The notes beneath the pieces are model-generated. The model worked only from the letters and a program-made list of their open reading frames with translations. It made no database searches and was not told the DNA's origin. Below, in pieces: positions 31,546 through 50,575 of a stretch of 64,000 nucleotides of DNA; positions within the stretch are counted from its first letter, which is position 1; the number at the start of each line of letters is the position of its first letter. The position numbers and the translations under genes are program-made. The stretch comes from Verrucomicrobiota bacterium. GTDB lineage: Bacteria > Verrucomicrobiota > Verrucomicrobiia > Limisphaerales > UBA9464. The stretch covers positions 1 through 64,000 of the forward strand of contig VHCX01000009.1 in the NCBI GenBank assembly GCA_016871615.1. The letters are read 5' to 3'.

Positions 31546-32478
31546 TCAGCGCTTCTTGGAGCTGAAGCCCTTGGGCAGGTGCGGCGCCCCGGGATCGGGC
31601 TCAGGCCCGGTCTCGGTCGCCGGCGGCGGGGCCTGGGGGATCTCGGCATCCTCGGGGACGCCGAGGCGGGCCCGCGCCTTCTTGGCGGCACCCGTCTCGG
31701 GGTACTCGCGGAGGATGCGCTCAAGCAGGGCCAGCGCCTTGTCGGGTTGGTTCATCTTGCCCGAGTACAGGTTCGCCAGGTGGATGGCGGTCCAGCCCCA
31801 CTTCTCGCGGCTCAGGCGCTTGGTGAGCACCTCCTCGAGTTCCAGGGTGGCCGCCACGTAGTTGTGGAGGTCCTTCTCGTAGATCTCGGCGATGCGGATC
31901 GCGGCGTACTGCTCCGACGGATTCTTGTCCAGGTACTCGCGCATCTGCCGGATGGCCTCGAGATGGTTGCCGTTGGCCCATTCGGCCTCGGCCGCCTCGT
32001 ACTCGGCGTCGGTCGCGGCCGGGGCGTTTTCCGACAGCACCACGTCGCCGGTCCGCCGGGATAACCAGCGGGACACCTCCCAGCCCAACAGTCCGGCCAA
32101 CCCGAGCAGGGAACCCACGAACCCGGCCAGCCATGGAAAGCCCGAACCCTTCATTGCCGGGGCCTTCCGGGCGGGTCCTGAAGCGGGCGCGTTGCTGGCC
32201 GTTCCCGTGGCGAGGGCGGAACCGTTGGTTGCGGAACGGCCTGCGCCCAGGTTGGTCTCCGACCCGGCGGGGCCTGGCGCGTTGGTCCTCGAGGCGGCCG
32301 GGGTGTTGGTCGACGGCTCGGATCCCGGATCCACGGCGGCCTCGGCCGCGGCCCCAGGCGCCTCGAGCCCGGCCCGCCGGACCTCCGCCCCGGCGTAGCC
32401 CGCGCGGAAACGCTGCAGGCACAGGGAGGCGGAAAGGAACAGCAGCACCGCGGCGAATCCCTTGATCCAGGAGCTCAT
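31546..32478 (-). CDS. Membrane-anchored TPR-like protein
   Basis: N-terminal TM MSSWIKGFAAVLLFLSASLCLQ; second TM; TPR-like NGNHLEAIRQMREYLDKNPSEQYAAIRIAEIYEKDLHNYVAATLELEEVL. Confidence 0.75.
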   Translation of the reverse strand: MSSWIKGFAAVLLFLSASLCLQRFRAGYAGAEVRRAGLEAPGAAAEAAVDPGSEPSTNTPAASRTNAPGPAGSETNLGAGRSATNGSALATGTASNAPASGPARKAPAMKGSGFPWLAGFVGSLLGLAGLLGWEVSRWLSRRTGDVVLSENAPAATDAEYEAAEAEWANGNHLEAIRQMREYLDKNPSEQYAAIRIAEIYEKDLHNYVAATLELEEVLTKRLSREKWGWTAIHLANLYSGKMNQPDKALALLERILREYPETGAAKKARARLGVPEDAEIPQAPPPATETGPEPDPGAPHLPKGFSSKKR

Positions 32479-32617
32479 CGTTGGGGTCGTGGTACCGCCC
32501 CGACGCCGATTCGAAAAGGGGAAAGCGACGCGCCGGCCGGGGTGGTCGGCCTTGGCTTCCCGGCGGCTTGGGCTTGAATCCCGGGCCCGGTTCAAGGCCT
32601 GCTGCGTTCTCCAGACC

Positions 32618-33340
32618 ATGGAATGGTTCGAGACACCCCAGCCCTCCTCCCCGGCCGAGCCCCTCGCCTGGGACGAGGCGTTCCTCGAGCGGGCGGAGGC
32701 CGGCCGCGGCGGACCGGCCCTTTGGTTCTGGGAGGCGACCTCCCCCTGCGTGGTGCTGGGGTATGGGCAGCAGGCGGCGATCGAGGCCGACCTTGACGCC
32801 TGCCACCACCACGGGGTGCCGGTGCTGCGACGGTGCAGCGGCGGAGGGGCCGTGCTGCAAGGCCCCGGGTGCTGGAACTACGGACTGGTGCTCCGCGTCG
32901 CCGAGACCGGACCGCTGTCCACGATCCCCGGGGCCAACGCCTGGATCATGGAACGGAACCGGTCCATCCTCCAGAGCCTGCTGGACCGGCCGGTCACGAT
33001 CGAGGGCCACACCGATCTCGCCGTCGACGGCCGCAAGTGCTCCGGCAACGCCCAACGCCGGCGGCGCCACCACCTGCTCTTCCACGGGACCATCCTCCAC
33101 GGCATCCCGCCGGGGTTGATCTCCCGCTTCCTCCGGTTTCCATCGGCCCAGCCCGACTACCGCCGGGGCCGTCCCCACGCCGAGTTCGTGGGAAATGTCC
33201 CGACGGACCCGGACGCGTTGCGGGATGCCTGGATCCGCGGCTGGGAGGCCATGCCGGCAACCGGACCCTTCCCGGCCGGGGAGACCCTCGCGGCCATGGC
33301 GGAGCGCTATGGCGATCCGGCGTGGCATGCACGGCGTTGA
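32618..33340 (+). CDS. Biotin/lipoate protein ligase A family (LplA/LipM-like)
   Basis: VVLGYGQQAAIEADLDACHHHGVPVLRRCSGGGAVLQGPGCWNYGLVL..KCSGNAQRRRRHHLLFHGTIL. Confidence 0.88.
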   Translation: MEWFETPQPSSPAEPLAWDEAFLERAEAGRGGPALWFWEATSPCVVLGYGQQAAIEADLDACHHHGVPVLRRCSGGGAVLQGPGCWNYGLVLRVAETGPLSTIPGANAWIMERNRSILQSLLDRPVTIEGHTDLAVDGRKCSGNAQRRRRHHLLFHGTILHGIPPGLISRFLRFPSAQPDYRRGRPHAEFVGNVPTDPDALRDAWIRGWEAMPATGPFPAGETLAAMAERYGDPAWHARR

Positions 33341-33363
33341 AATCCTTGGGCCCCTGTTGGGCT

Positions 33364-33564
33364 TCAGCCACCCGCCACGATGCGGACGATCTCCAGCCGG
33401 TCGCCCGGCGCCAGCGGCCGTTCCGGGAACTCCGACGGGGCCACCGCCTCGCCATTGAGCTCCACCACGACGCTGCGCGGGGGGAGGCCGCGCCGGCGGA
33501 GGAACTGCTCGAGCGTGCACGGGAACTCGGCCGGAACGGGCTCCCCATTGGCGATGACCGACAT
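33364..33564 (-). CDS. thiS: Sulfur carrier protein ThiS
   Basis: 66-aa MSVIANGEPVPAEFPCTLEQFLRRRGLPPRSVVVELNGEAVAPSEFPERPLAPGDRLEIVRIVAGG ending GG. Confidence 0.93.
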   Translation of the reverse strand: MSVIANGEPVPAEFPCTLEQFLRRRGLPPRSVVVELNGEAVAPSEFPERPLAPGDRLEIVRIVAGG

Positions 33565-33706
33565 GGGCGCAGCGTGGTGCCGGCAGACGGGATGTAAAGT
33601 CTTCCGGAAAGCCCCCCCGGCCTTCGGCTCCTTCCGCCCCGCGCCCTGCGCCACGGGCCTCCAGATTTCACTTCGGGCTTCCCGGTCCACCCACTAGCGT
33701 TGACGC

Positions 33707-34597
33707 GTGTCGCAGGATCCAATCCTCTCCCTCGACCTGCCCGGAATCCCCAAGGTGAAATCCGGGAAGGTCCGCGAAGTCTTCGATCTCGGGGACTCCC
33801 TGCTCTTCGTGGCCACCGACCGCATCTCGGCCTTCGACTGCGTCATGCCCAACGGCATTCCCCGCAAGGGCGAGGTCCTCACCCAGATCTCCTACTTCTG
33901 GTTCGACCAGACCGAGTCGTGGCTGCCGAACCACCGCCTACTCAAGGCCGACGATCCCCTGCCCGACCGCCTGAAGCCCTTCGCGGCCGTCCTGGACCGC
34001 CGGAGCATGGTCGTCCGCAAGACGAGGCCCCTGCCGATCGAGTGCGTGGTGCGCGGCTACCTGTCGGGCTCCGGCTGGAAGGAATACCGGAAGTCCGGAT
34101 CGGTGTGCGGCATCGCCCTGCCACCGGGACTGCAGGAGTCCTCCGAGCTTCCCGAGCCGATCTTCACGCCCGCCACCAAGGCCGAGTCGGGCCATGACGA
34201 GAACATCCCCTTCGACGAGGCCTGCCGCCTGGCCGGACCGGAGATCGCCCGGCAGGCGCGCGACCTGAGCCTGCGGCTCTACACGTTCGCGCGGGATTAC
34301 GCCCGGACCCGCGGCATCCTCATCGCGGACACCAAGTTCGAGTTCGGGATCGTCGACGGCCGACTGATCCTCATCGACGAGGTGCTCACCCCCGATTCGT
34401 CCCGGTTCTGGCCGGCCGACCAGTACGCGCCCGGACGCGGACAGCCGAGTTTCGACAAGCAGTTCGTGCGCGACCACCTCGAGTCCCTCGACTGGGACAA
34501 GACCCCCCCGGCGCCGGCGCTGCCCCCGGCGATCGTGGCCCGAACCCAGGCGAAGTACCTCGAGGCCTATCGACTGCTCACCGGTTCCCCGCTCTGA
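33707..34597 (+). CDS. purC: Phosphoribosylaminoimidazole-succinocarboxamide synthase (SAICAR synthetase)
   Basis: SGKVREVFDLGDSLLFVATDRISAFDCVMPNGIPRKGEVLTQISYFWF; TKFEFGIVDGRLILIDEVLTPDSSRFWP. Confidence 0.97.
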   Translation: MSQDPILSLDLPGIPKVKSGKVREVFDLGDSLLFVATDRISAFDCVMPNGIPRKGEVLTQISYFWFDQTESWLPNHRLLKADDPLPDRLKPFAAVLDRRSMVVRKTRPLPIECVVRGYLSGSGWKEYRKSGSVCGIALPPGLQESSELPEPIFTPATKAESGHDENIPFDEACRLAGPEIARQARDLSLRLYTFARDYARTRGILIADTKFEFGIVDGRLILIDEVLTPDSSRFWPADQYAPGRGQPSFDKQFVRDHLESLDWDKTPPAPALPPAIVARTQAKYLEAYRLLTGSPL

Positions 34598-34650
34598 ACC
34601 GACAGGCCGCCCCGACACACCCCACCCCCCCCCCCTCCCCTCCCGGACCC

Positions 34651-35148
34651 ATGCTCAAGGCCTCCCACCCGACGGATCCCCTGCGGACCGATGGCCGATT
34701 CGCCATCGTCTGCTCGCGGTACAACGCCGAGTACACCGAACCGATGCTGGCTGCGGCCCGTTCGATCCTCGAGGCGGCCGGGGCCCGCGAGGTCGAGGTG
34801 GTCCGAGTGCCCGGGGCCTTCGAGATCCCGGTCGCCGCGGCGGCCCTGGCCCGGCGCCGGACGCGCAGACCCCGGGCCATCCTCTGCCTGGGCGTGATCT
34901 GGCAGGGGGAGACCACCCACGCCGACCAGATCGGCGGCGCGGTCACCCGGGCGCTGATGTCCATCGGCCTGGACACGGGGATCCCTTGCATCCACGAGGT
35001 GCTCACGGTGACCACCCGGGCGCAGGCGCGGGCACGCTGCCTCGACCCGGAGACCAGCCGCGGGGTCGAGGCAGCCCATGCAGCGCTCGAGATCTCCGAG
35101 GCACTGGCCGGGATCGCCGGCCCTTCCCGGGGTCGGCACACGGCCTGA
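34651..35148 (+). CDS. ribH: 6,7-dimethyl-8-ribityllumazine synthase
   Basis: FAIVCSRYNAEYTEPMLAAARSILEAAGA..VRVPGAFEIPVAAAALA..LGVIWQGETTHADQIGGAVTRALM. Confidence 0.93.
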   Translation: MLKASHPTDPLRTDGRFAIVCSRYNAEYTEPMLAAARSILEAAGAREVEVVRVPGAFEIPVAAAALARRRTRRPRAILCLGVIWQGETTHADQIGGAVTRALMSIGLDTGIPCIHEVLTVTTRAQARARCLDPETSRGVEAAHAALEISEALAGIAGPSRGRHTA

Positions 35149-35162
35149 ATCACCCCACGACC

Positions 35163-35699
35163 ATGGCCGCAATCCGCCCCCATCTGCCGCCGGACCGGCT
35201 GACCCTGGTGCTCGCGCTGGCGGTGCTCGGCTTCGATCAGGCCACCAAGTGGCTGGTCCAGCGGTCGATGGAGTTCGGCGCCGAGCGGACGATCCTCGAG
35301 GGCTTCTTCAAGCTGGTGCACTGGGGCAACACCGGGGCGGCGTGGAGCATCTTCCGCCACCACAACGACTGGCTGGCCGGGTTCTCGGCCCTGGCCATGC
35401 TGGCGCTCTGGCGCTGGCGCCGGCACTTCGAGTACGACCGCCGCCCCGGTCAGGTCGCCCTCGGCCTGCTCTTCGGCGGCATCGTGGGCAACCTGCTCGA
35501 CCGGATCATCCACGAGCACGTGGTCGATTTCCTGCGGTTCTACTGGATCCGCCGCAGCGGCTCAGAGGTGGGTTTCCCCGCGTTCAACGTGGCCGACTCG
35601 GCGATCTGCACGGCGGTGGCCATCCTGATGATCCTCGCCTGGAGCGCGGAGCCACCCTCCACGGCGGGCCGGCCGGTCGGCGGCGGCTCAAAGCCATGA
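35163..35699 (+). CDS. lspA: Lipoprotein signal peptidase (signal peptidase II)
   Basis: FDQATKWLVQRSM, HWGNTGAAWSIF, GGIVGNLLDRIIHEHVVDFLRFYW, FNVADSAICTAVAILMI. Confidence 0.95.
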   Translation: MAAIRPHLPPDRLTLVLALAVLGFDQATKWLVQRSMEFGAERTILEGFFKLVHWGNTGAAWSIFRHHNDWLAGFSALAMLALWRWRRHFEYDRRPGQVALGLLFGGIVGNLLDRIIHEHVVDFLRFYWIRRSGSEVGFPAFNVADSAICTAVAILMILAWSAEPPSTAGRPVGGGSKP

Positions 35700-36637
35700 A
35701 ACCGGTGCTGCTGACCGGACCCACCGCCTCGGGCAAGTCGGCGGTGGCCATCGAGCTGGCCGAGCGGATCGGCGGCGAGATCGTCTCCGTCGATTCGATG
35801 CAGGTCTACCGGGGCCTCGACATCGGCACCGCCAAGCCCTCCCCGGAGGAGCGGCGACGCGTCCCGCACCACCTGGTCGACGTGGTGGGCCTGTCGGAAC
35901 CCTTCGACGCGGCTCGGTTCGTGGCCACGGCCCGGGAGGCGATCGACGACCTGTCGGTCCGGGGGCGCGTGCCCATCCTGTGCGGCGGCACCGGCCTCTA
36001 CATCAACGCCTGGCTCGGCGGACTCGGCTCGGCCCCGCCGCCGGACCCGGCCTTGCGCGCGGAACTCGAGGCGACCGGGACGGATGCCCTGCTGGACGAA
36101 CTGGCGCGCAAGGATCCGGCGACCCTGGACGAGATCGACCTTCAGAACCGCCGCCGGCTGGTCCGGGCCGTCGAGGTGATCCGCCTCACCGGCCGGCCCT
36201 TCTCGCTGCAGCGGGCCCGGTGGCCCGAGCGCGGCGGCACGCTGCTGGCCGGCCGCGCCTTCGGCATCGGGCGGGATCGCTCGGACCTCGTGGAGCGCAT
36301 CCACCGGCGGGTGGACCGGATGTTCGGGGAGGGCCTCGTCGTGGAGACCGCCCGGCGGCTGACCGAGGGGCTGCGGGAGAACCGGACGGCGATGCAGGCG
36401 ATCGGCTATCGTCAGGTCGTGGAGCATCTCGAGGGACGACGCACCCTCCGGGAGACCCGGGAGCTGGTCCAGTCCAAGACCCGCCAGTTCGCCCGACGCC
36501 AGCGCACCTGGATGACGGGCCAGTTGGATCTCGAGTGGCTGGAGGTCCGCCGGGACGAACCTCCGGGGCACACGGCCGACCACATCGCCCGGCGGCTCGC
36601 CGAAGGGTGGCCCCGGAGGGGATGCGCCGGAAGATGA
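35696..36637 (+). CDS. miaA: tRNA dimethylallyltransferase
   Basis: LLTGPTASGKSAVAIELAERIGGEIVSVDSMQVYRGLDIGTAKPSPEERRRVPHHLVDV; CGGTGLYI; ATGA overlap with lspA. Confidence 0.97.
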   Translation: MKPVLLTGPTASGKSAVAIELAERIGGEIVSVDSMQVYRGLDIGTAKPSPEERRRVPHHLVDVVGLSEPFDAARFVATAREAIDDLSVRGRVPILCGGTGLYINAWLGGLGSAPPPDPALRAELEATGTDALLDELARKDPATLDEIDLQNRRRLVRAVEVIRLTGRPFSLQRARWPERGGTLLAGRAFGIGRDRSDLVERIHRRVDRMFGEGLVVETARRLTEGLRENRTAMQAIGYRQVVEHLEGRRTLRETRELVQSKTRQFARRQRTWMTGQLDLEWLEVRRDEPPGHTADHIARRLAEGWPRRGCAGR

Positions 36638-36679: not shown

Positions 36680-37867
36680 TCAGGGCTCGAGCACCCGGAG
36701 ATCCACGATCTCGCCCGGCAGCACTGGGACGTTCGCAGGCAGGGAGACGAGGATCGGAAGGCCGTTCTCGGGCGCGGAGCGGGTGTCGCCCCCGGGCCCG
36801 GAGGCCGAGGAGGTCCTTGGCAACAACGACGGGAAGATCGGCTCCAACTGCGCGCCGACGCTGAGCACCTCGCCGACGCCCACCTCGCGGTTCCGGGCCC
36901 GGGACCGCACCTCGATCCTCGTCCCGGGACGGGCATCGATCTGCAGCGGCTGGCGGAGGAAGGCGACGACCCTCGAGGGCTTCTCACGGGAGACCGTCAG
37001 GATGGGTTCGCCGGCCTGCACGGTCTCGCCGGTCCAGCGGTGCACGATGCTCACGACCCCGTCGAACGGGGCCACCAGGTCGATCGGCATCAACTGGGCC
37101 TCGATCAGGTCCAGCGCGCGGGATTCCACCTCGATGGCGGCCAGCGTCGAGGAGGACTCCTGCCCCTCCGGCCGTCCGGCCGCCATCTGCTGGAGGCTGG
37201 AGCCGACCTGGTTGACCAGCGCCTCCAGTTCCTGCACGGCGGCCTCCTCGATCGCGGCATCCCTCCGGGAGATGTCGAGATCGTCCTGGCTCAACACCGG
37301 CAGCGCGCCGGAGGCACCCGGGGTCGGGACGCCGGAGCGCAGCTTCTCCAGACGCGCCAACTCGAGCTGCCGATAGGCGCTGCGTGCCTTGGCCGAAAGC
37401 CAGTCGACACGCTTGGACATCCAGTCGAGCCGGAGACCCTCGAGGTTCACCCGGCTGTTCTGCTTCCGGAGTTCGGAATCGTTGCCGGCCCGGATGAGTT
37501 CGATGCGCGCCTTGCTGAGGGAGATCTGGGCCTCGAGGACCCGGGGTTCCACCGTGATGACGCGGGCCAGCACCTGGCCGGCGACCACCCGCTGCAGGGC
37601 GTCGACCTGCACCTGGGCGAGACGACCCGGCCCGACGCTCGAAACCACCCCGCGCACCGACTCGGCCTCGCCCACGAGCGCAGCCGGGCCGACATGGCCC
37701 TGCCAGAGCCACAGGGTGGCTCCGAGCACCACCGCGAAGGCGAGGTAAGGGACCACCTGGATCCGGAATTCCCGGAACCGGGTGCCCGGCGGGGTGGGGA
37801 TCGGTGGCAGTCCGCCACCTGGCCCATGGTTCGGTTGGTTTGGCATGCGACTAGACTTCCGATTCAT
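36680..37867 (-). CDS. HlyD/efflux RND periplasmic adaptor-like protein
   Basis: Single N-terminal TM, VSSVGPGRLAQVQVDALQRVVAGQVLARV biotinyl-lipoyl-like half, coiled coil, DLVAPFDGVVSIVHRWTGETVQAGEPILTVSRE second half. Confidence 0.85.
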   Translation of the reverse strand: MNRKSSRMPNQPNHGPGGGLPPIPTPPGTRFREFRIQVVPYLAFAVVLGATLWLWQGHVGPAALVGEAESVRGVVSSVGPGRLAQVQVDALQRVVAGQVLARVITVEPRVLEAQISLSKARIELIRAGNDSELRKQNSRVNLEGLRLDWMSKRVDWLSAKARSAYRQLELARLEKLRSGVPTPGASGALPVLSQDDLDISRRDAAIEEAAVQELEALVNQVGSSLQQMAAGRPEGQESSSTLAAIEVESRALDLIEAQLMPIDLVAPFDGVVSIVHRWTGETVQAGEPILTVSREKPSRVVAFLRQPLQIDARPGTRIEVRSRARNREVGVGEVLSVGAQLEPIFPSLLPRTSSASGPGGDTRSAPENGLPILVSLPANVPVLPGEIVDLRVLEP

Positions 37868-38543
37868 CCTCCGCCTTGAGGCTCGTCACCCGGGACACCC
37901 CCGGGAAGGCCTTGAGTTCCGAGACCAGTTCCCCGGCCCGGGAGGCATCCCTCAGGAGGATGCGGTAGGAAAGATCGGTTCCATCCGACGCCGCACCGGC
38001 CCTCTGGCTGGCCAGATGGCTGCGTCGCCCGTGCCTCTCGAGCAACCCGGCGAGGCTGGGCAACTCGTCCAGCGGGCGGCCCCAGTGCAGGTTGAGGATG
38101 AGGTCGTAGCGGTGCCGGGCACCGAACGAGGTCCAGTGGAGGTAGAGCATGATCGCGGCGAAGACCAGGCAGCCCAGGATCGCCGTGCTGAACTTGCGCG
38201 TGCCGGCGGCCATGCCCGTGGTGATGCTGGCGAGGATGTAGGCCGTGTCGAGGGTGTCGCGGAGGATGTTCCGGAAGCGGACCACCGCGAACACGGCCAT
38301 CATGCCGAAGACCATCAATAGGTTGTTGAACATCACCGCCATCACCAGCGCGACGATGACGCAGAGGATGACGAGGGAGTTGACGAAGGACCTCGAGTAG
38401 CTCAGGCCCGAATGGCAGATCATGTATACCCAGGCCACGACATGACCGCAGAGGAAGGCGATGAGCAGGCCCAGCACCATGCCGCCCAGGTCGTCGGGCG
38501 CGGTGCCGAAGTCACCCCGGATGAAAAGGTCCGCAACGTTCAT
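37851..38543 (-). CDS. DUF4956 membrane protein
   Basis: VIVALVMAVMFNNLLMVFGMMAVFAVVRFRNILRDTLDTAYILASITTGMAAGTRKFSTAILG matches the DUF4956 core. Confidence 0.88.
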   Translation of the reverse strand: MNVADLFIRGDFGTAPDDLGGMVLGLLIAFLCGHVVAWVYMICHSGLSYSRSFVNSLVILCVIVALVMAVMFNNLLMVFGMMAVFAVVRFRNILRDTLDTAYILASITTGMAAGTRKFSTAILGCLVFAAIMLYLHWTSFGARHRYDLILNLHWGRPLDELPSLAGLLERHGRRSHLASQRAGAASDGTDLSYRILLRDASRAGELVSELKAFPGVSRVTSLKAEDESEV

Positions 38544-39403
38544 GTGGCCAGGAGGCCGGGTTGTCCCAGCCGGTTCGCGAGGCGAGAGAGTCGCGCCTTC
38601 CGACGCTCCACCGCCAGTCCAACCTCGGGAAATCCTGCGCCCGTCGCGGGATCCCTCAGGAAATGGTGTTCACCCTTCACCGCGATGCCATCGGCATACT
38701 TGGAGGCCGATCCCGGCCGCAACCCGAAAACCCGGACCATGTCGGCGAACCAGTCCGGGAAGCGGCCGGTGAACTTCAGCTCGAGGACCACGAGGTTGCC
38801 GAAGACCGGGGTCGGATCGTCCATCTCGGCGGCGAAGCGGGCCGTGAACTCCGGCGAAATGAGCACGTTGCGGTCGAAGGTGACCCGGACCGAGTTGTCG
38901 TTCGGGCTGATCCAGGCCTCGCGGTCGTAGGAGACGTGAGCCACCGGCATGGCCCGCTGGTCGCCGGCCAGCTCGATGAAGCGCTGCACCGCCACCAGTT
39001 GGCGCGCATCCTGGGTGACGAGTTCGGAGGCCTCGGGCAACTGTCCGGCCAGCACCGCCTCGACCGCGGGCCGGCGCACGCCGCACCGCTGCTTGAGGAT
39101 GGCGTCGTTCATCCGGCGCTTGATCTCGAAGAACACCGGCGCCTGGGGGTTCTGGGTGTCGGCGTAGAAGCGCAACCGGAGCTTGTAGCGGTTCTTGTCG
39201 CCGTTGATCGTGCCCCGGTAGATGCGGAGGTCCTCGGAGTCGAGATAGAGGTTGTGGATCGAGTAGGAGAGGTTCGGGCGATGGGCGCCGTACTCGTCGA
39301 TCTCTAGGTACGACGACACGAAGTCCCGCAGGGTCAATGCCAGCGCCTCGGGAATGACATACTTCAATTCCCACCGCTGCATCTGCATGTTGTCGGCTGA
39401 CAT
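38540..39403 (-). CDS. VTC-domain (polyphosphate polymerase-like, TTM fold) protein
   Basis: RWELKYVIPEALA (ExKY), YKLRLRFYAD (RxRxR-like), FFEIKRRMNDAILKQR, VLELKFTGRFPDWF tunnel motifs. Confidence 0.9.
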   Translation of the reverse strand: MSADNMQMQRWELKYVIPEALALTLRDFVSSYLEIDEYGAHRPNLSYSIHNLYLDSEDLRIYRGTINGDKNRYKLRLRFYADTQNPQAPVFFEIKRRMNDAILKQRCGVRRPAVEAVLAGQLPEASELVTQDARQLVAVQRFIELAGDQRAMPVAHVSYDREAWISPNDNSVRVTFDRNVLISPEFTARFAAEMDDPTPVFGNLVVLELKFTGRFPDWFADMVRVFGLRPGSASKYADGIAVKGEHHFLRDPATGAGFPEVGLAVERRKARLSRLANRLGQPGLLAT

Positions 39404-39608: not shown

Positions 39609-41996
39609 TCAGTCCTTCCAGGCGTTGAGGACCGGGTCGCCATCGCCCCTCCGGTACTGGAACGGAACGCTGTCGACCACCGCCTCGATGAGGGCCGAGA
39701 AGCGCAGGCCGCGCTGCCGGACACGGGCCTCGATGGCGGCCAAGGCCGGGCGATCGTAGTATTCCAAGCCACGGCCGAGGGCGTAGGTCAGCACCTTTTC
39801 GCTCAGGCACCGGATGAAATCGGCTTGGCGGGCCTCGGAGAGCACCCGGCTGAGTTCCTGATGGTCGCTGAAGCGCTCGCCCGAAACCAGCTCGCCCCGC
39901 GTCTCGACCGGGGCGTCCCCGTCCTGTTCCCGGTAGCGTCCCACGGCGTCGAAGTGCTCGAAGGCGAAGCCGAGCGGATCCATCTTGGCGTGGCAGGAGG
40001 CGCACATCGGGTTGTCGCGATGGGCATCCATGCGCTGCCGGAGCGTGCCGTGGGTCTCCTTGGACTCGAGGGCGGGCACCCCGGGCGGGGGCGGCGGCGG
40101 GGGCGAGGCGAGGATGTTCTCGAGGATCCACTTGCCCCGCTTGACCGGCGAGGTCCGGTTGGGGTTGGAGGTCAGCGTGAGCACGCTGCCATGGGTGAGG
40201 ACCCCGCGCCGGCCCGTGCCCGCGAGCGAGACCTTCTCGAACGAGGAGGCCCCCAGCGGAGCCGGCAGATCCCGGAGGCCATAGTGCCGGGCGAGGCGGT
40301 CATTGGCGAAGGTGTAGTCGGCCGTGAGGAACTCGGTGATCGGCCGGTCCTTCCGGAGGATGTGCTCGAAGAAGGCCTCCGTCTCGGCGCGCAGGGCGGC
40401 CCGGAGCGGCGGGTCGAAGTCCGGGAAGAGCCGGTCGTCGGGGGCGACGATGTCGAGCGTCCGCAGCTGCAGCCATTGGCCGGCGAAATTGTCGACCAGG
40501 GCCCTCGACCGCGGATCGGCCAGCATGCGACGGACCTGGGACCCGAGGTTGCGCCGCAGACGCCCCTTCCTGGCGAGCGTGAAGAGTTCCTCGTCCGGCA
40601 TGGTGCTCCACAGGAAGTACGACAGCCTCGAGGCCAGCGCATGCTCCGACACCCGGTGGATGGCCCCCGGGTCGTCGGGATCGGCCTGCGGCTCGCCCCG
40701 GTAGAGGAACTGCGGGGAGACCAGCACGGCCGTGAGGACCTGCTTCACCGAGCCCTCGAATCCCTCGCCCTCACCCTGCGCCCGCGCGAAGAGGGTCATC
40801 AACCGGTCGATCTCGGCCGTGGTGGCGGGCCGGCGGAACGCCCGATCGGTGAACCGCTGAACGATCTCGCGGGCCACCCGGTTGGTGGTCCCGGGCGAGG
40901 GCTGCCTGAAGAAGATCCGCCGGTGCATCGCGTGCAGCGGAGGCACCTCGTCGGAATACGGACCCTTCACCTCGATGAACTCCACCTGCAGGTTCCGGTC
41001 CTCGATCTTCTTCTCCTTGAAGGTCTTGCCTCGCGCGTTGGTGCGCACCAACTCGGTCTCCCGGTAGAAATCGTTCAGGAACGCCACCGACAGGCGATGG
41101 GTTCCGGCCTCGAGCCGCACCCGGTGCTCGTGGAGCTTGGGATTGCCACGTCCGCGGCGGACCTCGATCTGCTCCAGCTCCCGGCCATCGGCCCTGAGGG
41201 CCATCTGGACCTTCTCGTCGCCGGCCTGGTCCCCGTAGGCCTGGACCCGGAAGAGGTAGTCGCCGCCGACCGGGGCCGGGTAGGCCACCGACATCTCGCC
41301 CCGGGTCGAGAGCGTGGCGAGGGCCCCGCTGCCGGCATGTCCCTCGATGCGCGACGGGGCGAAACGGGTCGTCCTTGGGGGGATCGGTCCGGAGACGATT
41401 CCCCGGTCGAGGATGTCCTCGGCCGCCTGGAGGTACTTCTCGAGGAGCATCGGAGGGGTCGAGAGCACGTCCCCGATGTTGTCGAAGCCGTAACCGACGT
41501 CGTCCTGGGGGAAGTCGGCCGCGGGCTCGAAATCCACCCCCACCAGGTCGCGGACGGTGTGGTTGTACTCGACGCGGTTGAGACGGCGGAGGGTCACCCG
41601 GCCCGGGTCGGGCCGGTCGGGATCGACCGGGAAGAGCGTGCGGTCGATCCATCCGGCCAGGTGGCTGCGCTCCTGGGCCGTCGGCTGGACCTTGCGTTTT
41701 TTGGGAGGCATCTCGCCCGAACGCACGGTCTGGAGCACCCGCTCCCAGGTGCCCCGGTCGCCCAGCACGGCGACGAGGTTGGTGTGCCGGTCGAAGTTCA
41801 CCCCGCCCTTCGATTCAGAATCCCCGTGGCAATCCCAGCAGTGCTCCCGGAGCACGGGCAGCACGCCCTCGCGGAACTGCCGCTCCACGGCCGGACGGTC
41901 CACGGCGAGGTTGGCCCGCGGACGCTGCCGGGCCGCCCCGGCCCAGACGGCCAGCGCCACGGGGATCAGCCACAGGAAATGAAGTTTTCGGATCAT
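39609..41996 (-). CDS. DUF1592/DUF1588/DUF1587-type protein with N-terminal c-type heme motif
   Basis: VLREHCWDCHGDSESKGGVNFDRH; VTLRRLNRVEYNHTVRDLVGVDFEPAADFPQDDVGYGFDNIGDVLS; FRRPATTAEIDRLMTLF; SCHAKMDPLGFAFEHFDAVGRYRE. Confidence 0.93.
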   Translation of the reverse strand: MIRKLHFLWLIPVALAVWAGAARQRPRANLAVDRPAVERQFREGVLPVLREHCWDCHGDSESKGGVNFDRHTNLVAVLGDRGTWERVLQTVRSGEMPPKKRKVQPTAQERSHLAGWIDRTLFPVDPDRPDPGRVTLRRLNRVEYNHTVRDLVGVDFEPAADFPQDDVGYGFDNIGDVLSTPPMLLEKYLQAAEDILDRGIVSGPIPPRTTRFAPSRIEGHAGSGALATLSTRGEMSVAYPAPVGGDYLFRVQAYGDQAGDEKVQMALRADGRELEQIEVRRGRGNPKLHEHRVRLEAGTHRLSVAFLNDFYRETELVRTNARGKTFKEKKIEDRNLQVEFIEVKGPYSDEVPPLHAMHRRIFFRQPSPGTTNRVAREIVQRFTDRAFRRPATTAEIDRLMTLFARAQGEGEGFEGSVKQVLTAVLVSPQFLYRGEPQADPDDPGAIHRVSEHALASRLSYFLWSTMPDEELFTLARKGRLRRNLGSQVRRMLADPRSRALVDNFAGQWLQLRTLDIVAPDDRLFPDFDPPLRAALRAETEAFFEHILRKDRPITEFLTADYTFANDRLARHYGLRDLPAPLGASSFEKVSLAGTGRRGVLTHGSVLTLTSNPNRTSPVKRGKWILENILASPPPPPPPGVPALESKETHGTLRQRMDAHRDNPMCASCHAKMDPLGFAFEHFDAVGRYREQDGDAPVETRGELVSGERFSDHQELSRVLSEARQADFIRCLSEKVLTYALGRGLEYYDRPALAAIEARVRQRGLRFSALIEAVVDSVPFQYRRGDGDPVLNAWKD

Positions 41997-42064
41997 GCGC
42001 TTCCGTGGGACGCCACAAAGGGCGGCGTCCATTCATCGCAACCTCCGCGCAACCTCGCGGGGCG

Positions 42065-43018
42065 TCAACCACCCGGACGAGTGGAACCCGGGCTGCGCCT
42101 CCCGACGGGCCGGGCCGGGCCGGAGGGCCGGAGCCGACGCAAGCCCTCCAGGGCGGCCTCGCCCCCCCCCGATTCGCGCGCCGCCGCATAGTCGGCCAGG
42201 GCCGATTCGGTCTCACCTAGGAGTTCCCGGGCAAGGGCCCGGTCCAGCAACAGGGCGACCTCCGGGCGATCGGCCGGCATGCGTCGATCGATCTCGGCGA
42301 TGGAGGCCCGGAGATCCTCCTCGGCCTCCGCGCGCCGGCCCAGGCCCTTCAGCGCCCGCGCCCGCCGGATCCGCCAGGTGCCCGGCAACCGGGAGGACCG
42401 GATCTCGGCCTCGATCCATCCGAGGGCCTTCGCCCATTGGCCGTCGTCCAGCAGCGCCTCCACGCGCTCGACCGCCAGGATCCCGGCTCCGGTCCTTCGC
42501 CGGCCCTCCTCCAGCCCGGTGATCCGGTCGCGGGCCAGTCCGAGTCGTCGCTGGAGCCCGCTGCGCTCCAGGTAGGCGGGGACCAGCGAGGGATCGCATC
42601 GGAGGGCCTCGTCGCAGTCGGCCAGGGCCTCGCGCCAGGATCGTCGCGCGGCGTGCGCCTCGGAGCGGATCATCAGGAAGGCCGCCCGCTCCGGACCCGC
42701 CAGCCCGGGCCGCCGCAGTGCCTGACGCAACGTCGACATCGCCTCGTCGACGCGGCCGCGGCGAAACTGGACCTGCGCCAGTTCCCGGAGCAGCAACGGA
42801 TCGTCGGGATGCAGGCGGGCCGCCCGGCGCAGGTCCGTCTCGGCCTCGGCCCACCGCCCCAGCGTCCGGTACTCGATGGCCCGCTCCAGCAGCAGGTCGG
42901 CATTCTCGCCCCCCTCGGCCATGCGGCGCGACAGCTCCTCGATCTCGTGCTCCGGCCCCTCGTGGGCGAGGGCTACGAGGACCAGCCAACCGGCGAGGGC
43001 CGCGGCGAGGAGGCGCAT
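42065..43018 (-). CDS. Secreted TPR protein
   Basis: Signal peptide MRLLAAALAGWLVLVALA; repeated TPR units ADLLLERAIEYRTLGRWAEAETDLRRAARLHPDDPLLLRELAQVQFRRGRVDEAMSTLRQAL. Confidence 0.85.
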   Translation of the reverse strand: MRLLAAALAGWLVLVALAHEGPEHEIEELSRRMAEGGENADLLLERAIEYRTLGRWAEAETDLRRAARLHPDDPLLLRELAQVQFRRGRVDEAMSTLRQALRRPGLAGPERAAFLMIRSEAHAARRSWREALADCDEALRCDPSLVPAYLERSGLQRRLGLARDRITGLEEGRRRTGAGILAVERVEALLDDGQWAKALGWIEAEIRSSRLPGTWRIRRARALKGLGRRAEAEEDLRASIAEIDRRMPADRPEVALLLDRALARELLGETESALADYAAARESGGGEAALEGLRRLRPSGPARPVGRRSPGSTRPGG

Positions 43019-45102
43019 CAATCCTCCATCCAGAGGCGTGCGTCCAAGCCGAAGTCGATCGCCCCGTCGGAGTGGGCATGGCACTCGATGGCGAGCACGT
43101 TGACGCCGTCGACCAGGTGTCGGTGGGCCGGTCCGAGCGGCAGGTACACGAACCCGGAATCCTCGCGTGGCTTGACTCCCTGCGCGTTGCGGCCGGAACT
43201 GCGGCCCACGTTGGCGCGGGCCACTTCCTGTCCGTTGACATGCACCACGATCCCGTCGGCATAGTCGACCCAGAGGCCGAGTTCGGTGACCTTGTCGGCC
43301 TGGGGCACGGTGAACTCGCGCCGAACGTAGAGGGAGGGCCGACCCGTCGTCGACGAAGGGTTCGCAGGCTTGAGCCGACCCCGACCCAGATCGAAGGGCG
43401 GCTGTCGGTCCGCCCAGCCGGCGGCGTCGAATCCCGCCCGGGTCCACGCGGTCCCCTGCGGATGACCGGAGGCGAGCTGGCTCCAGGTCGAGCCCTCGGG
43501 GATGAGCACCCGGTAGTCGAGCGGGGGCGGATGGGGAGTCTTGGGTTCCTTGGAGGGGGCCTTGTACTCCGGGGGCTGCCACGGCAGGGCCAACCTGCGG
43601 ACGAGCCCGCCCCCCTCGCGCTTGACCAGGCTGAACCGGTCGCGTTCGAGACCGTCCCGGTTGATCATCCGGCCCACGAGGGTGTCCCCGTTCACATCGA
43701 CGACGAGCGACCCGTGTTCGAGGATCGTCCGACGCATCACCGGCGAGGTGCCCACCCTGCCGAGACCGGCCCCCGAATGACCGGCGACGACCTGGACGGT
43801 GCCCTCGTGGGCCCGGAGGCCGGGACGTTTCTGGTAGGGCCCGTCGCCGGAGGGGTCGCCGTCGCCGTCATCGAGGATGAAGTTCTCGGCCACGGTCGCG
43901 CTGGTGGAGTAGGCCCCGTCCATGAGCATGGAACGCTCGTAGATGTGCGAGTGGCCCGTCAGCACGAGGTCCACCCCGCCGGATTCGAGGATCGGCAGGA
44001 TGTGGTGTCGCATCTCGATGAGGTCGGCCTCCTTGTCGCTGTCGTGGCTGCCCTTGGTGTAGGGCGGGTGATGCCAGAAGGCGACCAGCCAGTCGGCCTT
44101 GGCCTTCTCGAGGTCGGCCTTGAGCCATTTGGCCATTGCGCCGGCGGGCTTCCGGTCGAGGTCGTGGGAATCGAGACAGATGAAGTGGAGGTTCCCATGG
44201 TCGAACGAGTAGTAGGCCTCGGTGCCCGAGGCCAGGCCGCCGGACTCGCCCCGGGTGGGCACGAGGTAGGCGTCGTAATAGGGGCCGATGCCGGTGCTGC
44301 CCTTCGAGGTGTGGCCTTCGTGGTTGCCCATGGCGGGCCAGCAGACCAGATGACGGAGGGTGTCCGCGTAGCTCTCGAAGAACCGGCTCTGGAACTCGAC
44401 GTCCCGGCCGGTCCCGTAGGCCATGTCGCCCACGTGGATCCAGAAGTCGAGCGGCCGGCCGTCCTCACGCACCCAGCGCAGCATGCCTTCGTGCACGGCC
44501 CGTTGGGCCTCGCGCCCGGTGCCGCTGTCCCCCAGCACCCAGAAGCGGTAGGGCCGCACCGTTCCGGCCTTGGGCTGCGCACGGAACCGGTGGTCGGCCG
44601 ATTCCGGGGTCAGGCGCCGGTCGCCGTCGAAGATCGCGTAGTAGCCGACCGCATCCGGCTCGAGGCCGTCGATGCGGGCCTCGTACTGGAAGGTGCCGAC
44701 CGGGGCGCTGTGCAGCTTCGGCAGCGCGAGATTCTCCGGGGTGCGCAGCGCCTGCCACCGTGCCGGCACGGCCTGCCCGGCGGCCCCGAGGCTGGCCCGG
44801 ACGACCAGGTCGTCCTTGCCCACGACCCGGTCGAGACGGTCGGGACGGGTGCCCCATCGGAGCACCGGGCGTATCGGCCCCTCGGTCCGCCACAGCACGT
44901 GGACCCGGTCGGGCCCCGAGGCCTGGACATAGGGCAGTCGTGCCATCGGCGGCTCCGGGTTGGCCGCCCGAAGCCTGGGCCGACCCATCAGGTCCATCAG
45001 GACCCATACGCCCAAAAGCACCAGACTCCGCAGGGAGATGGCGGCTCGTCCTGAACCACGGGCACCCAAGGGCAGGCACCACCGCATCGTGGAGTGTCTC
45101 AT
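43018..45102 (-). CDS. Metallophosphoesterase / purple acid phosphatase-like protein
   Basis: VLGDSGTG, VGDMAYGTGRDVEFQ, PAMGNHEGH, VAFWHHPPYTKGSH, LTGHSHIYERSMLMDG calcineurin-like motifs. Confidence 0.93.
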   Translation of the reverse strand: MRHSTMRWCLPLGARGSGRAAISLRSLVLLGVWVLMDLMGRPRLRAANPEPPMARLPYVQASGPDRVHVLWRTEGPIRPVLRWGTRPDRLDRVVGKDDLVVRASLGAAGQAVPARWQALRTPENLALPKLHSAPVGTFQYEARIDGLEPDAVGYYAIFDGDRRLTPESADHRFRAQPKAGTVRPYRFWVLGDSGTGREAQRAVHEGMLRWVREDGRPLDFWIHVGDMAYGTGRDVEFQSRFFESYADTLRHLVCWPAMGNHEGHTSKGSTGIGPYYDAYLVPTRGESGGLASGTEAYYSFDHGNLHFICLDSHDLDRKPAGAMAKWLKADLEKAKADWLVAFWHHPPYTKGSHDSDKEADLIEMRHHILPILESGGVDLVLTGHSHIYERSMLMDGAYSTSATVAENFILDDGDGDPSGDGPYQKRPGLRAHEGTVQVVAGHSGAGLGRVGTSPVMRRTILEHGSLVVDVNGDTLVGRMINRDGLERDRFSLVKREGGGLVRRLALPWQPPEYKAPSKEPKTPHPPPLDYRVLIPEGSTWSQLASGHPQGTAWTRAGFDAAGWADRQPPFDLGRGRLKPANPSSTTGRPSLYVRREFTVPQADKVTELGLWVDYADGIVVHVNGQEVARANVGRSSGRNAQGVKPREDSGFVYLPLGPAHRHLVDGVNVLAIECHAHSDGAIDFGLDARLWMED

Positions 45103-45965
45103 GATCCTAAGGCCTTCGTGTCGTTGGTCCGGCCGGTGGCCAGGCGCTTCCCGAACGTTTCCAGCCGGGCCTCCCAGGTCGCCCACGTGGGCTGCCAGGC
45201 CTCCCCGGCAAACCGCTCCCGCGCCGCCGGGAGGGCCTGCTGAAGGGCTTCAAATTCGCGCCGCGCCGCCGCGGGCTCCCCGTCCTTCAGCAGGTACCCG
45301 ATCCATTCCAGCCGATTGCCGGGATGGACCGGTTCCAACTCCACGGCCTTGGAAAGATGCTGGCGCGCCTTGGACCGGCTGCCGAGCCCGAGGGGCGGCG
45401 GCGGGCACTCGGCGTACAGCATGCCCAGGGAACGGTCCGCCCCGGCATGGTCGAAGGCCGGGTCCAGCAGCCGCGAGGCCTGCCAGGCCGACTCCATGTC
45501 CCGGACATGACCCAGGGCCCGGAGCGGCTGGGATTGGGCGAGGATGCCAAGGTTCATGGCGAGGTAGTAATGGCACCCCGCCTCGGCCGGGAAGGTCTTG
45601 AGGGCCGTCCGGCAGGCCTCGACGCCTTCCTGGGCGACCGAGATGCGCACGGGCTTGGAGGCCAGCGCCTCGCACCGGTCGAAGCAGGCGCGGGCAAAGG
45701 CCCAGGCGAGATCGGGCCGGCCCGGCGACTGGCGGTGCAGGGCCTTGGCCGCCTCGTAGGCGCGGGTCGCAGCGACGCTCGTGGACATCCCGTATTGGAT
45801 CCTCCGGAGGCCCCGCGTCATGCCCTCGTCATCGCGGGATCCCGCCACCACCTGCGAACCGGTGGCCAGTCCCACGACCAGACCCAGCCCGCAGACCAGC
45901 CCGAGCCCCGTGCGGGGCGCGCGTCCAGGGTGCGACGAGACGAACTTCGTCAGGAAGGCGATCAT
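45099..45965 (-). CDS. TPR-like hypothetical protein
   Basis: N-terminal TM; helical repeats; ATGA overlap with phosphatase gene. Confidence 0.7.
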   Translation of the reverse strand: MIAFLTKFVSSHPGRAPRTGLGLVCGLGLVVGLATGSQVVAGSRDDEGMTRGLRRIQYGMSTSVAATRAYEAAKALHRQSPGRPDLAWAFARACFDRCEALASKPVRISVAQEGVEACRTALKTFPAEAGCHYYLAMNLGILAQSQPLRALGHVRDMESAWQASRLLDPAFDHAGADRSLGMLYAECPPPPLGLGSRSKARQHLSKAVELEPVHPGNRLEWIGYLLKDGEPAAARREFEALQQALPAARERFAGEAWQPTWATWEARLETFGKRLATGRTNDTKALGS

Positions 45966-46091: not shown

Positions 46092-49000
46092 TCATTCCTC
46101 GACCAGTTGGAAGAAGCCCGAGGCCCGGGTGGGATCCAGCGACAGGGGCACACGGACGTTGCCCGTGGGAGTGATCTCGGGCTGCAACCCACTGTCACGC
46201 CACGACGCCTCCGAACCACCGAGCGAATCCGAGGTGCGGACCCGGAGACGCCGGTCGCGAGCCGAGACCACCTTGCCGGACGAATCCACGGCCTCCAGCT
46301 CCAGGCGCCACTGCGAGCCCGACACGGTCTGGCCCACCACCCGGCCGCCGAGCACCCGTCGCCGCTGGGCGATGCTCAACTGGCGCGCGCTGAAGCGCAC
46401 CTCGGTGACCGGCCGGGCCTCGACGGTGGCGATGAGCGAATCGAGCGGCACGGTGCCGAACCGCAGCTCGGTGGTCCCGGCCTTGGCCTTGACCCGGAAA
46501 CCCGCCTCAAGCCGCACCGAGGTCCCCGCCGGGGCCGCCTCGCCCGCCGGCCTCCAGAGGACCGCACCGACCCGACCCTCGGCCGCATTCCTGCGGTTTT
46601 CGAGGAACGAGGCGTTGCCCGGGGTTCGGAGTCCCACGAATTCGAGGGCCGCCGGGTCGAACTGGAGGTTGAACGAGAAGGCGTTCTCGTTGCCGACGCC
46701 CTCGAGGATCACGGGCACCCAGGCCTCCTCGCCCGCGACCAGGTCGCTCCAGCCATACGCCAGCGAGCGCACCGGTTCCGCGGTGCGGTTCCACGGCAGC
46801 GACTTGGCCACGGCGGAGCCCCGCGATCGGTTCAGAAGGTAGTTTGGCCCGCCCGAGGCCGGATCGGCGGCGGGCTGCAGGGGATCCAACTGGGCCACAT
46901 ACCGGGCCACCTGGACCAGGTCGGCCAGGTTGATGGACCAGTCGCCCGACTCGGAGCGGGGCGCGCAGTCGATGCGCCGCCGGGTGACGAGGTTGGTGTC
47001 CACCGTCCCGGCCGCCAACTGCGCGGCGATCGAGGTGATGTCCAATACATCCACCGATCCGCTGCCGTTGACGTCGCCTTCCACGGAGTCGGCCAGGATT
47101 GCAAGGGCGCCGCCCTCGGCGGCCACCGGGGCCTGGGTGGCATTGGTGTAGGCCACCCGGAACGCGAGGTCTCGGTTGGTCACCTGGAGTTCGGCATCGG
47201 GAACGACCCGGACCGGCACCCAGAGCGGCGGGACCACCGGGACCCCCGAGGTGCCGAGATTGCGGATGATGCCGATGGACTCGGCCGTCTGGGCTTGGAA
47301 CGACAGGCGGGCGATCCGGTTCGTTCCCCGTGGCAGGCCCTGCGTGGGGTCCTTCTGGGCCAGCAGCACCTGGAGTCGGAACCGGTTGCCACCGACCCCT
47401 CCGTTGGCCGGCGGCGCCACCAGCGAGCCGAGGCGTCGGACGCTCAGGGTGGTGGTGGCATTGAGGGCGGGGTCGAGGGTGAGGGTCAGGATCGACTCGT
47501 CGGTCACCAGGTACGGCGAATCACAGGCGAGGGTGAAGGAGACCGCCGACTCGTCGCCGAAGCCGACGAGGAAAAGGGGCAACTCCACGGCGCTGCCCGG
47601 GGAGACCAGGGTCTGGGTCGGCATGCGGAGCACGCGGTCCACCCGCAGGGCGATGGTCCTCGACACCCCGGTGGTGCCACCGATGGCATTGGTGGCCACG
47701 AGGCGGTAGATGCCCGCGTTGGTCGGGACGGCGCCGACCAGCCATCGTGGCGAGTTGGTCGCCTGGACGAGGACCTGGTAACGGGCCGGCACCGCACCCG
47801 AGGCCGGGGAGACCTGCCGCTCCCATCGGAATACCGGGGCCGGGAAACCGGAAACGGTCAGGTAGGCCGAGAGGTCCACCGTGGAGTAGGCGATCGCGGC
47901 GATGGTCAGGTCCACGCCGGGGACCGACCCCGGAACCCAGGATCCACCTCCCTCGACCGGAGCGGGCGGCGAGGCCGGGACACCGAGGTCGGCGGCGGAG
48001 ATTAACGTCACCGGGAAGGCGACGATCTGCTCGGTGCCCGCCAACTCGACGCCACCGGGAACGGTCAACTGGACGGCGCGGACGCGGTAGATGCCGGTCA
48101 TCGAGGGCTGGAGGGCGGACGTTCCCACCGAGAACGACGCGCGGCCGCCGCCGCCGGTGAGGTCGAGATCGAAAAAGCCCCCCGGTGCCCAGACCGCCGG
48201 CAGGGGCGGCACCGTCACGGGGAATGTCGCGCTGGCATCCCGCCAGGATCCCAGGACATCGTCCCAGCGCTGGAGTTGAACCCGTCCGGCCAGCGAACCG
48301 GCGAGCTGGATCTCCAGGGACGCCGCCGTGCCCGACGGAGCGAGGATGTTGGTCCGGGACAGCGCCACGGTGGCCGCCAGCACAGGCGTGAACCCGCCGG
48401 AGACCGCCGTGCCCCGGGAACGGTCCGCAGGCAGGCTCGAGCCGGTCAACGGGTTGGAGACCCGCACCGAGTAGGAGCCGATCTGGACAAAGCTGAAGTT
48501 GGTCAGGGCCAGCGTGCCATTGGTCGCCTTGGCGATCTCCGATCCGTCCTTGAGCCACTGGTAGGTCACCGACGGGCCATGCGCCGAGATCACCGAGAAC
48601 ACCACGTTGGTGGATCCGGCGGCGACCGGCCCGAGCAACGAGGGCACCGTCGGGTTTGGCGACACCGCCGAGGAGACCGCGGGCGTGGTGATCTCCGGGA
48701 AGATCCCGACGGAGACCAGGTTGGTCACGGCCTTGCCCAGGGCGTTGCCGACGACGACGAGGTAGTTGCCCGAGTTGGCGACGGCGAGCTGGCGTAAGGT
48801 CACGACCACCGATTGCCCGAGCACGGACGCCGTGGCGTTGGTCACCGGCGTGTCGATCGCGGACACCGGGTCGCCGGTGCGGGCATCATAGACCGTGACG
48901 GTCGGTTGGGGATCCCCCTCGGCCCGGACCACGAAGGCGAGGCTCAGGGCGGGATCGGCCACGGCGAGAGCCGTCCCGGAGGAGCTCTCGCCCAGGGGCA

Positions 49001-50459
49001 CGGCCAGGGGGGCCGGCATTGCCCGGAACGAGGCGGCATCGATCGAGACCTCGGCCGGGGAGTCGGCGATCCGGACCAGCACCGACCGGAGGTCGCCACC
49101 GAACGCGTTGATCGCCTCCGCGTCCATGCGGAACCATCCGGACTCGGAGGGTCCCACGGTCAACGAGACCTGGGCGTTGGTGGCACCGGGGACAAGCACC
49201 CCGTTGCGTCGCCATCGGTACTGGACCGGAGGCGCGCCGTTCTGCAGACCCACCCGGAAGGTCAGGGTGCGGCCGCGGTCGGTGAAATGGGCCGCGGGAT
49301 CGAAGTCGCGGACGCCTGCGGCCGAGGTCTCCCGGATCAGGACGGCTTCCAGCACGGGGCGCTCCCGGGACACCAGCACCAGGTTGTGCTGTGAGCCGGC
49401 GGCGATGTCCACGACGTTGACCAGGCCGGCGGGAATGGAGGTCTGCCCGGACCCGTTGTGGCCCCAGGCCGTGACCGTCCCATCGTCTTTCAGGGCCAAC
49501 GTGTGGGCCCGGCCGGCGGCGATCTTGACCACCCTCGAGAGCCCGGCCGGGACGCTGGTGCGACCGTCGGCGGCATTTCCCCACGCCACCACCGATCCGT
49601 CGCCGCGCAGGGCGACTAGGTGCGAGGCACCCGCCCTAAGCGAGACGACATTGGTGGCGTTCAGCGGGACGGACACGACACCGGAGGCGTCGGAACCCCA
49701 GGCAACGACCTGGCCGTTGGCCAACAGCGCGGCACTGAAGAACTCGCCGGCCACGACCGCCACGGCGCCCGTCACGCCCGACGGCACCAGGCGCTCGCCG
49801 AAGAGATTGTCACCGCCGAAGGCCGAGACCGTCCCGTCGGCACGCAGGGCCAGGACATGGGTGGAACTGACCGAGACGGCCACGTACCCGCCGAAGGGAT
49901 CGGCATCGGTCGCTGGCAACCCTGCCGAGATCCGGTCGCCGAAGAAGGCCAGATCGCCGGGGAACTGGTCCCTGAATCGGCCCGAAGGGATCGGTGACGG
50001 GGCGTTGGTGGGCCTGCGGATGAGGGCACCGAAGAGGTTCCCGAAGTCGACGCGGTCGGAGACCATCCGCCCTGCGGCATCCCGGAGGGCGACATTCCAG
50101 GAGGTACGATCGGCGTGATCCTCGGACCCGGGGCCGTATTGGACCACGCCGTCGGGTCTACCGGTCAGCAGCGCCGGGCCCCGCAGGAGGAGTCGGCTCC
50201 CCGCATAGTTGGTCCCACCCAGGAGAATGGCGTCGCGGAGCACGATCCCGGAGACGAGATCCCCGGCGACGACCGAGTCGACATCGTTGGCCGTGACGCC
50301 CGGCGGAAGGTCCGGTGGTCGGTTCAGACCTAGGAATCCATCGCCCCAGGCCACCAGCGAGCGGTTGCGGACCTGGCCCTGGAGCGCTGCGGCCGCGAGG
50401 AACGCCCACAGCACGACGGCAGCCGACCACCTTCCCCGACCCGACGGACGCGAAGACAT
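46092..50459 (-). CDS. Very large secreted protein with RCC1-like, Ig-like, dockerin and cohesin-like regions
   Basis: RCC1-like [56 protein letters not shown]; dockerin [24 protein letters not shown] and [19 protein letters not shown]; cohesin-like [33 protein letters not shown]. Confidence 0.85.
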
Positions 50460-50575
50460 ACATTGGATCCCATCGACGGATCCCGCGACGACTTGAATCG
50501 CCACCGCCCACGCGGTCCGCAGGTCCGTGCTCGCCGCCTTTGACAGGCCGCCGCCCGCCCTCGCACGCTGAAGGC

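Follow-up and report, generated by a model that had tools for sequence, protein, structure and literature searches.

Among the closest described counterparts of the locus reported here is the yeast VTC complex (Vtc1/Vtc3/Vtc4), in which a VTC/TTM catalytic domain is joined by a small polytopic membrane partner and for which a coupling of synthesis to membrane passage has been proposed. The TM1 helices of yeast VTC form a channel whose basic residues have been mutated, and the triple substitution R264A/R266A/E426N inactivates the complex (PMC9911596). In bacteria, genes for CotH, a polyphosphate-polymerase-like protein and DUF4956 have been described as accessory to Gram-positive Pel loci (PMC7112168). 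Deletion of the DUF4956 gene or of cotH in S. intermedius altered Pel levels and aggregation, and the authors found no CotH/VTC-type/DUF4956 synteny outside Pel loci (PMC12345266).

The locus that we describe, a VTC–DUF4956–adaptor triad, shares with yeast VTC the catalytic domain and its tunnel residues, together with a small polytopic membrane partner. Unlike in yeast, two genes encode the enzyme and the membrane domain, the VTC domain is the only domain that Pfam finds in the enzyme (SPX is absent), the membrane partner is not of the Vtc1 type but belongs to another family, DUF4956, with an ACT-like domain, and the system adds a periplasmic adaptor and TolC. The S. intermedius genes SIR_1592-1594 resemble it in their VTC-type, DUF4956 and CotH association; they lie, however, beside pel genes and go without adaptor, TolC or outer membrane, whereas our locus lacks pel genes and has no CotH linked to it. 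Adaptor architecture, the motif at the adaptor tip and, in relatives, a TolC-family partner within the operon recall the EmrAB-TolC and MacAB-TolC pumps, but the unit has no MFS or ABC transporter, and the inner-membrane partner is apparently DUF4956 with the VTC enzyme. Lastly, the coupling of cytoplasmic polymer synthesis to cross-envelope export that we propose here is a feature of synthase-dependent exopolysaccharide systems such as Pel, which differ in that the triad has a phosphate-polymer enzyme instead of a glycosyltransferase. Each part comes from a known family, and the combination of VTC with HlyD/TolC appears to be undescribed; a literature search, with most subscription journals and preprints outside its scope, found no paper on VTC with HlyD and TolC, nor one naming both the VTC domain and DUF4956.

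A conserved three-gene unit

The window, that is, the whole stretch of 64,000 nucleotides that was analysed, belongs to a metagenome-derived assembly (G000) of 3.8 Mb in 183 contigs that is 96% complete. A check of its open reading frames gave three minus-strand genes running from 39403 down to 36680 in the order VTC, DUF4956, adaptor, with the following features:

38540..39403, minus strand: VTC-domain (triphosphate tunnel) protein, putative polyphosphate polymerase, first gene of the triad, 287 aa (PF09359)
37851..38543, minus strand: DUF4956 membrane protein, 230 aa, modelled with four membrane helices and an ACT-like domain at the C-terminus (PF16316)
38271..38279, minus strand: codons for R89-F90-R91 of DUF4956, in a long membrane helix (homologue alignment)
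36680..37846, minus strand: periplasmic adaptor of HlyD/EmrA type, 388 aa when read from ATG 37846, the probable start (HlyD_3)
37289..37354, minus strand: tip of the adaptor hairpin, carrying the TolC-docking motif R165-x3-L169 ... S186, numbered from ATG 37846

A first-pass annotation, made from the letters alone, had called these a VTC fold with tunnel motifs, a DUF4956 membrane protein and a periplasmic adaptor, and the profile searches bear out all three names. The VTC protein matches PF09359 with E 7.2e-40 and 137 bits (cut-off 23) over profile positions 2-233 of 235, the second protein matches PF16316 marginally, just over the cut-off (E 2.3e-7, 31.1 bits against 30.6), and the third matches Pfam HlyD_3 (E 9.6e-12). 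NCBIfam names none of the three genes specifically. The same annotation had the genes overlapping in series. The 4-bp overlap of VTC and DUF4956 (ATGA, 38540-38543) is real, but the 17-bp overlap of DUF4956 and adaptor at 37851-37867 is probably an artefact of choosing the longest reading frame (start 37867, 395 aa), because adaptor homologues of the same genus start at the equivalent of ATG 37846, 4 nt past the DUF4956 stop. Across relatives the gaps within the triad have a median of 3 nt, as does the DUF4956-to-adaptor gap taken alone over 74 loci. A scan for sigma-70 promoters and terminators found none.

We then compared 96 genomes, all of the same order of Verrucomicrobiota as our genome; 80 have VTC, 79 DUF4956 and 80 the adaptor. 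The neighbourhood read-out that the first-pass annotation had set as a test did not refute it: among 40 adaptor loci, the full triad stood adjacent and in the same gene order in 32, had a divergently oriented adaptor in one, was reduced to DUF4956 and adaptor with VTC elsewhere in the genome in four, and was missing in three, where the adaptor had neither VTC nor DUF4956 beside it. In a collection of named GTDB genomes, which overlaps in species with the first sample, 69 of the best 80 of 319 DUF4956 loci held the full triad. As judged from gene order, the arrangement is far beyond chance, because the ordered triad is kept in dozens of genomes with differing flanks.

The genes that flank the triad are common to the same genus only and change beyond it, and a larger fixed operon in the order was therefore ruled out. 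In the window, two minus-strand protein genes lie upstream (39609-42032 and 43018-45186), one for a PSD/PSCyt (DUF1592-type) cytochrome protein that also matches CBM60 and one for a protein resembling purple acid phosphatases; their place next to the triad is conserved no further than the genus. Farther off, a minus-strand frame of 1470 aa (46092-50504) carries RCC1 repeats and immunoglobulin-like domains and is apparently a large surface protein. On the other side, the plus-strand stretch 32462-36637 holds a row of housekeeping genes (lipoate ligase, purC, ribH, lspA, miaA) convergent toward the triad.

The tunnel enzyme and its putative membrane partner

The VTC family profile matches the yeast Vtc4 structure 3g3q (6e-11). 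In the profile alignment, Vtc4 K200, R264, R266, E279, K281 and K294 correspond to K14, R76, R78, E93, K95 and K104, and Vtc4 Y359, R361, R373, E426, K428 and K458 to Y159, R161, R173, E208, K210 and K235. All of these are invariant in 100 diverse homologues except Y159 and R173, each present in 99. The ten Vtc4 positions of the polymerase tunnel set, whose completeness the first-pass annotation had made a test of its reading, are all present, nine of them at 100/100 and R173 at 99/100. On paper the protein would be catalytically complete, a putative polyphosphate polymerase. PPK1 is found in 84 of the 96 relatives, including our genome, and the VTC enzyme is therefore not the usual enzyme of storage polyphosphate; the idea that it replaces an absent PPK1 was rejected on the same count.

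The DUF4956 protein was modelled by AlphaFold2 (pLDDT 80) as four membrane helices followed by an ACT-like domain; a streptococcal relative likewise consists of a membrane part and an ACT-like domain (PMC12345266). A sequence search of the PDB gave no match for it, and its fold matches are weak (best E 1e-3) and mostly ACT-type or ferredoxin-like. They include the C-terminal domain of MgtC (2lqj), a family that has the same succession of a small membrane domain and an ACT-like domain, but Pfam assigns DUF4956 and not MgtC, and the genetic partners are others. R89 and R91 are kept in 97/97 DUF4956 homologues and the RFR motif across the wider family. By analogy these two residues may be comparable to the basic residues lining the yeast polyphosphate channel, with model confidence around their helix being low (pLDDT about 65). 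As a side observation, a search within 7 kb of a DUF4956 match on Sinorhizobium psymA detected neither VTC nor adaptor.

The same two proteins could be read in another way, with the tunnel enzyme as a hydrolase, a nucleotide- or phosphate-handling or a regulatory protein, DUF4956 as an MgtC-like signalling protein, and adaptor and TolC as exporters of, for instance, a polysaccharide. The evidence from the tunnel is divided. E12, at the position of Vtc4 T198, is acidic in 100/100 homologues and so retains, at one position, the acidic patch that is typical of hydrolytic tunnel enzymes, and Vtc4 K455 has no conserved counterpart, both being differences from the yeast enzyme. On the other hand, R10, K104 and K210 place basic residues, as polymerases have, at three of the four acidic-patch positions, and K235, present in every homologue, matches Vtc4 K458, the catalytic lysine, whose counterpart is of little importance in a tunnel-fold tripolyphosphatase (PMC4641920). 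Outside the tunnel, the ACT-like domain with its likeness to MgtC suits a signalling role, and the Gram-positive relatives lie in Pel polysaccharide loci, where two of them modulate Pel (PMC7112168, PMC12345266), but a polysaccharide synthase is not conserved in our unit. We regard this alternative as unlikely, though by no means negligible.

The adaptor and its probable outer-membrane partner

The adaptor model (pLDDT 84) shows one membrane helix, a lipoyl domain, a long hairpin and a beta-barrel. Its best PDB matches are EmrA and MacA, with low TM-scores (0.3-0.5) that we attribute to flexible angles between the modelled domains. An I-P-x-P motif, a signature of the adaptor family, precedes the membrane helix. 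In tripartite pumps an R-L-S motif at the hairpin tip is the docking motif for TolC-like proteins, and here the tip has R in 49, L in 39 and S in 40 of 51 homologues.

Evidence for an outer-membrane partner comes from further afield. Among the triads of our genome's order no linked TolC gene was seen; our genome has 12 OEP domain matches, none linked to the triad, which could serve in trans. In the rest of the phylum the adaptor directly follows DUF4956 in 32 of 45 VTC-DUF4956 loci, as counted from the neighbourhood read-out, which was used in place of a strict adaptor search (E 1e-25) that undercounted distant adaptors. In other classes of the phylum, 12 loci form a four-gene operon, VTC-DUF4956-adaptor-TolC, with the OEP match over the Pfam cut-off and the OEP/TolC gene the next to be recognised on the same strand (L266, L276, L281, L287, L289, L290, L292, L293, L294, L295, L296 and L298). 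Two more (L284 and L297) have an OEP match just under the cut-off, and in L274 and L279 the OEP gene is unconfirmed. The operon is reordered as adaptor-OEP-VTC-DUF4956 in genome G070 (L243, 4858-9211). These linked TolC genes, all at loci outside the window, are the strongest evidence for cross-envelope export, to which they point at the level of gene order.

In the flanks of the order and phylum loci, no MFS, ABC or RND transporter is conserved beside the triad, and DUF4956 is therefore the only inner-membrane candidate of the unit. Two loci differ in content. At L249 (1281-6303), VTC-DUF4956 is followed by a different adaptor (HlyD_D23), an ABC ATPase and a MacB permease; these may form a further variant of export or be adjacent by chance. 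On a Hymenobacter plasmid (L252, 5929-8012), DUF4956 is followed by a TolC-family gene, and VTC and adaptor were not recognised.

A real counter-observation to export is that some adaptors lack the hairpin. Those of L101 (6641-7351) and L102 (6339-7058) retain the membrane helix and the lipoyl and barrel parts in the alignment, the adaptors of genomes G072, G074 and G078 match with the same gap, and the docking tip motif is lost with the hairpin. Such adaptors, found in five genomes, would fit a system in which VTC-DUF4956 releases polyphosphate to the periplasm only and the adaptor serves DUF4956 as a sleeve or regulator, the outer membrane being left uncrossed. The lack of a linked TolC gene in the order fits this as well, as do the VTC-DUF4956 loci of the phylum (about one third) that have no adjoining adaptor. 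Such a system would not account for a TolC-family gene right after the adaptor in 12 loci or for a docking motif retained in most hairpins, and the OEP proteins of our genome could act in trans. We consider release to the periplasm only to be rather improbable.

We therefore return to the reading in which the triad couples cytoplasmic synthesis of polyphosphate or a similar polymer to export across both membranes. The VTC-domain enzyme, at the cytoplasmic face, would use ATP to make polyphosphate or a phosphate polymer closely akin to it; DUF4956 would anchor it at the inner membrane and conduct the growing chain, like the membrane helices of yeast VTC; and the EmrA-like adaptor would bridge the periplasm as a duct leading to an outer-membrane channel of TolC type, which our genome would supply in trans and other classes encode within the operon. 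Of the readings considered, export appears best supported at the level of gene content, and we judge the chances of the coupled model as a whole to be about even. The first-pass annotation had drawn polymer export from the HlyD-type gene; TolC in the operon elsewhere and the docking motif speak for this, whereas polyphosphate as the product, conduction by DUF4956 and export itself are what we infer. The weakest links of the model are the identity of the polymer and the role of CotH (see below). Counted against it are E12 in place of Vtc4 T198, the unconserved K455 position, the hairpin-less adaptors, the lack of a linked TolC gene in the order and, in S. intermedius, a deletion of the VTC-type gene with no reported effect where deletion of DUF4956 or cotH had one (PMC12345266).

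Since relatives add an outer-membrane channel, a dedicated machine for making and exporting a phosphate polymer may exist in bacteria. If the model is true, the machine would be an envelope-spanning bacterial equivalent of yeast VTC that is separate from PPK1, and would offer a direct genetic handle on extracellular polyphosphate. DUF4956 gains a concrete candidate role.

Association with CotH kinases

The strongest association of the locus, absent from the first-pass annotation, is with CotH kinases. Among 289 genomes of the phylum, 54 have both CotH and VTC, 3 VTC only, 21 CotH only and 211 neither (Fisher p 3e-37), and in the order sample nine of the ten genomes without CotH are also without VTC, the tenth having a paralogous pair only (Fisher p 8e-8), both tests ignoring ancestry. 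Mapped on a PPK1 tree, CotH requires a minimum of 7 changes and the triad a minimum of 8; the independent contrasts on well-supported branches agreed in direction in 5/5 cases, which is not significant alone (p 0.0625), as p cannot fall lower because there are only five contrasts. Exceptions occur in both directions, with VTC but no CotH in Bacteroides ihuae and CotH but no VTC in Bacillus subtilis.

CotH also lies beside VTC-DUF4956 at nine loci (L241, L245, L246, L247, L248, L274, L284, L287 and L289) and on a Pseudobutyrivibrio plasmid. At L241 and L245, CotH, VTC and DUF4956 stand together and no Pel locus was recognised, which makes them instances of this synteny outside Pel loci. Five of the loci (L241, 1870-5410; L245, 5018-8682; L246, 2543-6155; L247, 2758-6361; L248, 4302-7868) hold a diverged second VTC-DUF4956 pair that adjoins CotH in variable gene order, without an adaptor, in other genomes of the order.

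The co-occurrence and adjacency of CotH would be expected if adaptor and TolC secreted CotH itself in type-I fashion, with VTC-DUF4956 as a separate function in a shared operon. Most of the CotH proteins beside these loci, however, start with Sec-type signal or anchor sequences, so that CotH is probably independent of the adaptor-TolC route; moreover, no ABC transporter is present in the unit, and CotH-VTC-DUF4956 is kept in Gram-positive bacteria, which have no outer membrane. Secretion of CotH by this route is thus very improbable.

In the coupled synthesis and export model, the polymer product would act beyond the inner membrane, in concert with CotH kinases that are exported. A specific form of this, in which polyphosphate threaded outward through DUF4956, adaptor and TolC is the phosphate donor or substrate of secreted CotH kinases, is a speculative proposal that we hold to be quite improbable; if true, a polyphosphate donor would explain kinase activity outside the cell, where ATP is scarce. 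In either form, the CotH linkage gives a testable proposal on the supply or use of exported CotH-family kinases. Our own genome has 18 CotH-domain matches in its 3.8 Mb, all on contigs other than that of the triad, a striking expansion of secreted-type kinases.
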